Program-made: the position numbers and the translations under genes
The notes under the pieces: model-generated
Databases searched by the model: none
Told to the model about the DNA's origin: nothing
The model's input: only the letters and a program-made list of their open reading frames with translations
Shown: piece by piece, positions 40,931-61,368 of the stretch
Numbering within the stretch: position 1 is the first letter of the stretch
Layout of the letters: each line of letters begins with the position of its first letter
NCBI RefSeq assembly: GCF_000376445.1
Contig: NZ_AQXI01000001.1
Location: 2,505,734-2,569,733 of the forward strand
Length of the DNA stretch: 64,000 bases
DNA from: Haladaptatus paucihalophilus DX253
GTDB lineage: Archaea; Halobacteriota; Halobacteria; Halobacteriales; Haladaptataceae
Direction of reading: 5' to 3'

Positions 40931-40976
40931 TTGTCAGTGTACGGCACGACAGATTGTCAGTGTACGGCACGACAGA
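40931..40976. repeat. 23-bp perfect tandem direct repeat
   Basis: Two identical back-to-back copies (40931-40953 and 40954-40976) containing TGTCAGTGTACGGCACGACA, which is itself an imperfect palindrome (TGTC...GACA). They lie about 145 bases upstream of the mutase gene and about 35 bases outside the end of repeat D. This could be a two-site operator or a duplication made when D inserted. Confidence 0.7.
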
Positions 40977-59771: not shown

Positions 59772-60129
59772 GCTCCATTTGAAAGTATTGCCGTCGAATA
59801 TACTTTGTGCAGACATTCTGTTTAAAAATACTTCTGATTTTGACAGTGTATGAATGTGTCCGAAAATCTCTGTGCGTTTCTAAATTTCTCCTCTCTGCCT
59901 GATTCACCCACGATTCTGACGAATCCAAACCTCTTCAAAATCGATAAATATCTGATCGGATGGGTGTTCGTGGGTGTCGAACGTGATACCCCACGACTCG
60001 AAAAAATTGTTGGCTCAACGAAGTGACGCTTCGTCGAACAACGCAAAGCAGAACTTTGCTGGCTTGACGAGGCTCACGCCTCGTCAAACAGCGTGAATCA
60101 AAGATTCACTGGCCCCTGGCCCGACGAAG
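59772..60129. other. intergenic region with hairpin array
   Basis: 358 bases. The left part (59772-59990) is AT-rich and holds the promoter of the beta-propeller gene. The right part is the hairpin array. No gene is seen. Confidence 0.5.
60001..60006 (-). terminator. T-tract after dehydratase gene and hairpins
   Basis: On the minus strand TTTTTT follows the last hairpin, about 12 bases after its stem, fitting an archaeal T-tract terminator for the dehydratase transcript. Confidence 0.4.
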
Positions 60130-60145
60130 CTATGCTTCGTCGAAC
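60010..60145 (-). repeat. alternating five-hairpin array at 3' end of dehydratase gene
   Basis: Stems: ACGAAG/CTTCGT (60018-60034), GCAAAG/CTTTGC (60043-60059), TTGACGAGGC/GCCTCGTCAA (60064-60087), GTGAATC/GATTCAC (60093-60109) and CGACGAAGC/GCTTCGTCG (60122-60142, overlapping the dehydratase stop codon). The first, third and fifth share flanks (TGGC... before, AACA after) and recur every 50-57 bases. The second and fourth are followed by TGGC. All are perfect stems with short loops. Confidence 0.8.
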
Positions 60146-61368
60146 AACTCCTCGCCTTCGACCATGTGCTCTTCCACGGCGTCCATGTCGAGCGTCACGC
60201 CGAGCCCTGGTTTCTCGGGCACCGTGATGTAGCCGTTCTCGATGACGTCCTCTTCCACGAGGTCCTCCCACCAGCCGAGTTGGTAGGAGTGGTATTCGAC
60301 CGCCAGCGAGTTCGGGATGGCGGACCCCACGTGCGCGCTCGCCATCGTCGCCACCGGCGACGAGACGTTGTGCATGGCGACCGGAACGTAGTACTGGTTG
60401 GCCACGTCGGCGATTTTTCGGGTTTCGCGCATGCCGCCGACCTTCGGCAGGTCGGGCGCGATGATGTCCACCGCGAGGTTCTCGATGAGGCGGCGCTCCT
60501 CGGTGACGCGGTAGCGGTTTTCGCCCACGGTGATGGGCGTGTTCGTGGACTTCGTGACTTCCTCCTGTACTTGCAGGTTCTCCGGCGGAACGGGGTCTTC
60601 GAGCCACCAGACGTCGTAGTCCTCGATGGCTTCCGCGAGGCGCTTCGCGCTTCCGGCCGAGAACGTCCAGTGGCAGTCGAACGCCACGTCCGCGCGGTCC
60701 TTCACGCGCTCCGTGACCTTCTCCACGATTTCGGCCTTGTGACGGATTTCGCCGGGGCGGAGGTGACGGTTCGCACGGTCCTTTTCGAGTCCCGAGGGAA
60801 CGTCCAAGTCGAACTTGAGCGCGTCGTAGCCCAGTTCCTCGACGACGCGTTCGGCCTCGTCGGCACAGGCGTCCGGGTCCGCCTCGTCGGCGGTGTGACA
60901 GTCGCAGTACACGCGAACTCGGTCGCGGTACTTCCCGCCGAGGAGCTGGTAGGCCGGGATGTCGAGGATTTTGCCCGCGAGGTCGTGCAGGGCGATTTCG
61001 ATGCCCGAGATGGCGGTGACGGTCACGCCTTCGATGGAACCCTCGCCGGACATCTTCTGGATGAGGTGTTCGTACAGTCGGTCGATGTCGAGCGGATTCT
61101 CGCCGATGACGAACGGCTTCATCCGCTCGATGAGTTCGGGGACACCGGCACCCCAGTAGGCCTCGCCGGTGCCGACGATTCCGGCGTCGGTGTACACGCG
61201 GACGAGCGTCCACGGGAAGTTGCCGTCCACCATCGTCGTCTGTACGTCGGTGATTTCGATGTCGCGCTTGCTCCCGCGGGATGCCGTGGCACCCATCGTA
61301 TCGGCGGAGAGGTTGCGCATCGTGTACTCTGCGTTGGGGTCGTGCAGTGTCGAGTAATCGCGTCCCAT
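60130..61368 (-). CDS. enolase-superfamily sugar-acid dehydratase (gluconate/xylonate/galactonate type)
   Basis: 412 residues (MGRDYSTLHDPNAEYTMRNL). The mandelate-racemase-type fold is shown by VRVYTDAGIVGTGEAYWGAG, the metal ligands in VAFDCHWTFSAGSAKRLA (Asp), WWLEDPVPPEN (Glu) and ITVGENRYRVTEE (Glu), and the acid/base His in VPVAMHNVSSP. It should turn an aldonic acid into a 2-keto-3-deoxy acid in the semiphosphorylative Entner-Doudoroff route. Which acid is not settled by sequence. The stop codon lies in hairpin five of the array. Confidence 0.88.
   Translation of the reverse strand: MGRDYSTLHDPNAEYTMRNLSADTMGATASRGSKRDIEITDVQTTMVDGNFPWTLVRVYTDAGIVGTGEAYWGAGVPELIERMKPFVIGENPLDIDRLYEHLIQKMSGEGSIEGVTVTAISGIEIALHDLAGKILDIPAYQLLGGKYRDRVRVYCDCHTADEADPDACADEAERVVEELGYDALKFDLDVPSGLEKDRANRHLRPGEIRHKAEIVEKVTERVKDRADVAFDCHWTFSAGSAKRLAEAIEDYDVWWLEDPVPPENLQVQEEVTKSTNTPITVGENRYRVTEERRLIENLAVDIIAPDLPKVGGMRETRKIADVANQYYVPVAMHNVSSPVATMASAHVGSAIPNSLAVEYHSYQLGWWEDLVEEDVIENGYITVPEKPGLGVTLDMDAVEEHMVEGEELFDEA

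Follow-up and report, generated by a model that had tools for sequence, protein, structure and literature searches.

In the 64,000-nucleotide stretch of the Haladaptatus paucihalophilus DX253 genome that we analysed (the window), a minus-strand gene runs into an array of hairpins that contains its last codons and its stop codon (Table 1). Judged by its domain matches (Pfam MR_MLE_C, 2.9e-61, and MR_MLE_N), the gene product is a mandelate-racemase/enolase-type sugar-acid dehydratase. The best NCBIfam match, gluconate/galactonate dehydratase, scores 223 bits, below its equivalog cut-off of 750 bits, so that GnaD-like serves only as a working name. The protein ends in ...EELFDEA, and the 3' end of the gene on the sense strand, GTTGTTCGACGAAGCATAG, encodes L-F-D-E-A-stop.

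The array is built of units of about 50 nt, in each of which a type-1 hairpin, formed from the codons Leu-Phe-Asp-Glu-Ala-stop, precedes a type-2 hairpin of variable sequence. The window array amounts to 2.5 units, two of them complete and the third represented by its type-1 copy; T6 follows, and the sense tail reads AACAATTTTTTC. Downstream of the stop, type-1 hairpins of the form TGTTYGACGARGC-loop-GCYTCGTCRRGCCA alternate with type-2 hairpins. We read the last type-1 copy as the displaced original gene end, the stop of which would have decayed to TCA. The original prediction had placed five hairpins here, beginning inside the coding sequence and followed by a T-tract on the sense strand, and we found all of this to be accurate. 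Its description of every stem as perfectly paired was a slight overstatement: three stems are perfectly Watson-Crick paired (9, 7 and 10 bp), and hairpins 4 and 5 each contain one non-Watson-Crick pair at full length, which is G-U on the sense strand and A-C on the plus strand. The recurring TGGC/AACA words were also confirmed, with a spacing of 50-56 nt, and they are periodic because they form part of the repeated unit.

Table 1. Host gene, array units, hairpins and T-tract, in window coordinates.
Feature	Position	Strand	Description and evidence
Host gene	60130..61368	-	412-aa MR/MLE (enolase superfamily) dehydratase, GnaD-like; open reading frame and Pfam
Unit 1	60091..60146	-	Type-1 hairpin, small GGCC hairpin, type-2 hairpin GTGAATC-TTT-GATTCAC; covariance model R1 49.2 bits, E 6.8e-13
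Hairpin 1 (type 1)	60122..60142	-	CGACGAAGC-ATA-GCTTCGTCG; loop holds stop TAG 60132-60130; perfect 9-bp stem
Small extra hairpin	60111..60121	-	GGCC-AGG-GGCC; fold, pair probability 0.98
Hairpin 2 (type 2)	60093..60109	-	GTGAATC-TTT-GATTCAC
Unit 2	60041..60090	-	TGTTTGACGAGGC-GTGA-GCCTCGTCAAGCCA and GCAAAGT-TCT-GCTTTGC; covariance model R1 68.2 bits, E 1.3e-18
Hairpin 3 (type 1)	60062..60089	-	12 bp, GUGA tetraloop; also encodes F-D-E-A-stop
Hairpin 4 (type 2)	60043..60059	-	One U-G pair beside the loop, sense strand
Unit 3, partial	59991..60040	-	Last type-1 copy, then T-tract; covariance model R1 32.4 bits
Hairpin 5 (type 1)	60013..60039	-	One G-U pair within the stem, sense strand
T6 then C	60001..60006	-	Candidate terminator; sequence, T-run enrichment after relatives' arrays, 95% termination at T5C in Haloferax (PMC7237163)

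Folded as sense RNA, the array reaches -82.4 kcal/mol (z = -6.8), and none of 200 shuffles did as well. A scan of the window for stems of at least 7 bp with loops of 3-8 nt returned the array as the sole cluster of at least three hairpins, and the shuffled window returned none. Comparison of the array with Rfam gave nothing above a gathering score (the top match, rpsL_pseudo, reached 17 bits where 70 are required). A consensus terminator scan found nothing, because under its rule T6 is not immediately adjacent to a stem. Elsewhere in the window, a perfect 23-bp direct repeat of TTGTCAGTGTACGGCACGACAGA in two copies (40931-40976) is among its strongest short tandem repeats.

A second array in the DX253 genome lies on a different replicon, at the 3' end of a paralog (G000:C2) that is 76% identical to the host gene; the array DNA is 78% identical. 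Strong unit matches in this genome are confined to these two gene loci. Using R1, a covariance model of one array unit, we detected the unit in 185 of 392 Halobacteriales genomes and in 56 of 95 genera. Since the whole-genome searches scored only a subset of candidates in each genome, we also scanned 1.2 Mb in full (0.8 Mb of DX253 and 0.4 Mb of a Halorubrum), and there only the gnaD array exceeded 29 bits. Arrays beginning at the same codons as in the host gene are also found at orthologs from many families. In genomes with more than one array site, 20 fetched regions held 22 arrays at the 3' ends of dehydratase-family genes, paralogs included, two of which were on paralogs with just 53% and 57% protein identity; one further array was off-gene, about 2 kb from a dehydratase-family gene. 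The pattern had been suggested as something to seek behind other haloarchaeal stop codons; arrays are indeed widespread, but almost exclusively at the 3' ends of the dehydratase family.

Units away from a dehydratase 3' end are few, and they lie near a dehydratase gene. One sits behind the third same-strand gene of a cluster (G033), one between genes in H. pallidirubidus and one downstream in a further genome (G340). In Haladaptatus litoreus (L081:2009-2058), a single unit is attached to an unrelated H-lectin-like gene upstream of gnaD. That gene ends in ...LVFDGA-stop, and the unit lies exactly on its native end, GTGTTTGACGGGGCG-stop; in other species it has the same ending and no unit. The resemblance of this native end to the start of a unit suggests a homology-guided acquisition. 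A dispersed mobile repeat was considered as the main explanation and rejected: searches with palindromic frames and the covariance scan match essentially only this gene, and the rare off-gene units are all within about 2.5 kb of a dehydratase gene. In a phylum-wide sample, one match fell outside the order Halobacteriales (G418), with no dehydratase nearby. We regard it as a lookalike, with tandem hairpins near a phosphoglucosamine-mutase-like gene. That locus (L331:2683-2800) consists of three perfect, unit-like triloop hairpins in tandem.

According to the original prediction, the hairpin at the gene's 3' end looked as if it had been duplicated in tandem, with compensatory changes. The paralog in the same genome, 163 distinct gene ends (124 of which have the first hairpin, or one or more units), the gain and loss of units and covariation all bear this out. 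In an alignment of 26 units chosen by eye, 90.7% of cells are paired and double changes occur in 13 of 19 pairs. In a larger alignment of 131 matches from 80 named loci, which is fitted to the covariance model and so biased towards it, 89.6% of cells are paired and 346 are changed on both sides, whereas shuffling gave 101 such cells and sliding the alignment no more than 72. Broken pairing in relatives had been named as a refutation of the idea; in the event, 89-91% of pair cells remain paired.

The first hairpin, the 5' arm of which is coding, offers an independent test of the predicted structure. Its silent Phe third base tracks the noncoding partner with an odds ratio of 19 (p 8e-8) and its silent Asp third base with an odds ratio of 57 (p 3e-11); these p-values, like the covariation, ignore common descent. 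The Leu codon that precedes Phe ends in TG in 117 of 124 array genes and in 26 of 39 genes without an array. The array shows the marks of a conserved structured RNA, namely covariation above controls and, in type-2 stems only, strand-specific wobble.

Units turn over quickly. Genes carry 0 to 5 units with a modal spacing of 49-51 nt, extended to 53-59 nt where hairpins are longer. Haloferax larsenii lacks a unit and H. elongans has one; their genes are 97% identical, and a clean 53-nt unit distinguishes the two sites. If read as a gain, a direction suggested by these two species, it would have displaced the former tail, TTCGACGAGGCGTAA and stop, downstream; the protein ends in FDEE in H. elongans and in FDEA in H. 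larsenii. Across Haloferax and Halorubrum species with genes 92-98% identical, whole units come and go and take on different type-2 partners, and paired double changes separate Haloferax species that are only about 2% apart. The last array copy still reads F-D-x-x-stop in 55 of 103 arrays. C-termini at arrays are FDEA, FDPA, FDEE or FD-stop, so turnover at the gene end rewrites the C-terminus of the enzyme. Individual arrays carry further rearrangements. In Halobellus salinus (L117:3740-4765), the region of the first hairpin is interrupted by an IS transposase gene, behind which array remnants continue. In Halorubrum laminariae (L138:3781-3833), the core of a type-1d hairpin has been inverted while the stem bases on either side stayed as they were, which may record template switching or an inversion inside the palindrome. 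Inverted loops are also seen among array hairpins. We regard the anatomy and evolution of the array as well supported.

Whether such an element works as RNA or as DNA should be visible in its imperfect pairs, for which strand-symmetric DNA processes predict equal numbers of G-U and A-C on the sense strand. Where a distinct type-2 hairpin has one flaw, that flaw is G-U in 20 cases and A-C in 3 (15 against 1 at interior positions, p=5e-4), in a unit-wise test that was one of several variants tried and with counts uncorrected for shared ancestry. By contrast, single flaws in type-1 stems show no excess (9 G-U, 7 A-C), and two codon positions of the first hairpin are evenly split (13 and 13). Any mutational bias would be expected to affect type-1 stems as well. 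When we first compared G-U with A-C over every hairpin under a loose definition, no signal emerged, as chance hairpins dominated the set; under a stricter definition the ratio was 45:24 for 7-bp stems, while stems of 8-9 bp did not differ significantly. The unit-wise test alone set type-2 apart from type-1 stems. Two further counts, both inflated by shared descent, are strand-specific: 2x2 internal loops on the sense strand are GA/GA in 54 cases and TC/TC in 5, and the type-1c form occurs 30 times in sense and never in antisense.

T-runs are positioned as expected for transcripts that end beyond the array. Runs of at least four T lie 20-140 nt behind the last copy in 34 of 103 arrays and further on in 9 of 103 (p=2.6e-5); behind the stops of array-less genes the corresponding figures are 24/60 and 4/58. 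A-runs, the control, are not enriched after the last copy, and a T5 threshold alone gives a weak signal. The runs are located after arrays and not within them. As T-runs follow arrays in the way that they follow the stops of array-less genes, the array falls within the expected transcript. Together with the G-U bias of type-2 stems and the sense-strand G-A loops, this leads us to read it as 3'-UTR RNA, and we favour the interpretation that it acts there as sense RNA.

How could such an array benefit the gene? We lean towards the view that a gene-locked mosaic of RNA hairpins makes up the 3' UTR of gluconate-dehydratase-like genes and helps to form or protect the mRNA 3' end; from the sequence evidence, we infer transcription through the array and a protective or terminating role. 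A reinforced 3' end or stability element had been proposed from the outset and is plausible, given the location of the array between stop and T-tract and its RNA-strand signatures. The type-1 hairpin would derive from the final codons and stop codon of the gene itself, with the type-2 hairpin interchangeable. Duplication, together with recombination via repeated TGTTYGAC words, would add new units within the array or at the end of the gene, pushing the original tail and stop downstream and leaving the gene to end in the first unit present (FDEA, FDPA, FDEE or FD). Stable, redundant stem-loops between stop and terminator would then hinder 3'-to-5' decay and help to set the transcript end. If some stem is needed and not one particular sequence, unit number and identity would be free to change while hairpins survive, which fits fast turnover with pairing kept. 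There are precedents for both roles. In a Haloferax study, 503 termination sites had hairpins before them, and one tested hairpin gave 59% termination and T5C 95% (PMC7237163); removal of REP hairpins from 3' UTRs in E. coli shortens mRNA half-life (PMC12306157). Against this view, about half of the genomes have no detectable array, so that it is dispensable, and neither the type-1 stems nor the two codon positions of the first hairpin show a G-U excess.

The main rival is a neutral, self-copying palindrome. A gene end of this kind would seed slippage, template switching and unequal recombination, and DNA repair would produce palindromes, all with no benefit to the cell. This would explain the very rapid turnover and patchy presence of units, the inverted core in L138 and the inverted loops, the paired double changes that separate Haloferax diverged by about 2%, and transfer to a neighbour, the H-lectin gene of H. 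litoreus with its unit-like native end GTGTTTGACGGGGCG. Template switching, which the original prediction had offered as a source of the hairpins, may account for some of the unit changes, that is, the inverted core and loops and the paired double changes, but a strand-symmetric process at the DNA level does not predict 20 G-U against 3 A-C in type-2 stems. The neutral palindrome does not account for the same wobble bias, and the sense-only tandem G-A loops, the persistence of the array in 56 genera and the exclusion of T-runs from arrays also count against it; we consider it rather unlikely.

Other functional explanations place the emphasis on a binding partner or on the DNA itself. It strikes us as improbable that the structured 3' UTR regulates the sugar-acid dehydratase mRNA via a bound factor, with CRISPR- or VNTR-like unit gain overwriting C-terminus and stop. 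We hold it quite improbable that the array is a gene-specific cis-regulatory RNA, acting through a small RNA released from it or through a protein that recognises its hairpins, perhaps a sugar-acid regulator or the dehydratase itself: its strict link to one enzyme family, down to paralogs only 53-57% identical, and the confinement of off-gene units to the vicinity of a dehydratase gene would suit such a role, but type-2 stems and loops are too variable for an obvious sequence-specific site, copy number varies from 0 to 5, and the linkage may merely follow from the seed sequence L-F-D-E-A-stop. A DNA-level element at the gene border, acting as cruciforms or protein-binding palindromes (a topoisomerase or nucleoid site, or a recombination hot spot), would account for the perfect palindromes and for the IS insertion in the Halobellus salinus array. 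The fixed orientation relative to the gene speaks against it, and an excess of G-U over A-C, like G-A loops confined to the sense strand, would be unexpected for double-stranded DNA, which leaves this very improbable.

Among known systems, the array is most like BIME/REP elements at the 3' end of a gene, for which roles in mRNA 3' stabilisation and termination have been proposed (PMC2817692, PMC12306157). Both are mosaic arrays of palindromic units between genes, with pairing kept as sequences change and strain-variable unit numbers, and the 49-51 nt spacing and shuffled modules of the array match this mosaic character. However, BIME/REP elements are dispersed in high copy (usually >100), alternate in orientation and are extragenic, whereas the array occupies only two gene loci in DX253, has all units in sense to the gene (type-1c, 30:0) and includes the last codons and stop in its first hairpin. 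The IS200/RAYT (Y1) transposase that accompanies REP/BIME elements (PF01797) is absent from the DX253 genome and present in 5 of 14 control genomes. On these four counts the array is not a BIME but a palindromic mosaic locked to one gene family. The Haloferax volcanii termination map (PMC7237163) has hairpins before 3' ends, a T5C terminator and 3' UTRs of about 100 nt, to which the location of the window array between stop and T-tract and the T6C behind it correspond; its accessible sections describe single hairpins and no tandem mosaic shared by one gene family across genera. As in CRISPR, conserved and variable elements alternate with a regular period and units are frequently gained. Yet CRISPR has non-palindromic, unique spacers between identical repeats, while in the array both elements are palindromic, different species share variable elements, any unit along the array can change and coding sequence takes the place of the 'leader'. 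A literature search, the coverage of which was partial and does not by itself prove novelty, turned up no earlier description of the array.

Little is known of how archaeal mRNAs are stabilised and terminated, and the array provides a natural series of 0-5 units across dozens of genera. Because near-identical species pairs exist with and without units, the 3'-UTR hypothesis is directly testable. The array is also a case in which an RNA-structure repeat rewrites the C-terminal residues and stop codon of a protein and ties silent codon positions to bases outside the coding sequence.

Several other hairpins came to light in these searches. A common genomic hairpin pool was rejected as the source of type-2 modules: a few cores recur singly elsewhere, too few for a source. 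Single hairpins of the form GATAGACGA-RC-GNA-GY-GAGTCTATC, with tandem G-A and a GNA loop (L192:1501, L195:1501, L193, L196 and L197), lie, by eye, directly after dnaK-like and aspS-like stops and have AGCTCG / CGGTGTT junctions as in gnaD arrays. A three-hairpin cluster (GAGGGAGC..., TTCACGGC...) occurs in two inverted copies in the DX253 genome (L201:19128-19209 and L216:10459-10537) and is probably a portion of a longer repeat. In one small haloarchaeal genome (G045), unlike the others searched, GTTCGAAAATCGAAGATTTTCGAGCCAGC-like hairpins are dispersed over four places.
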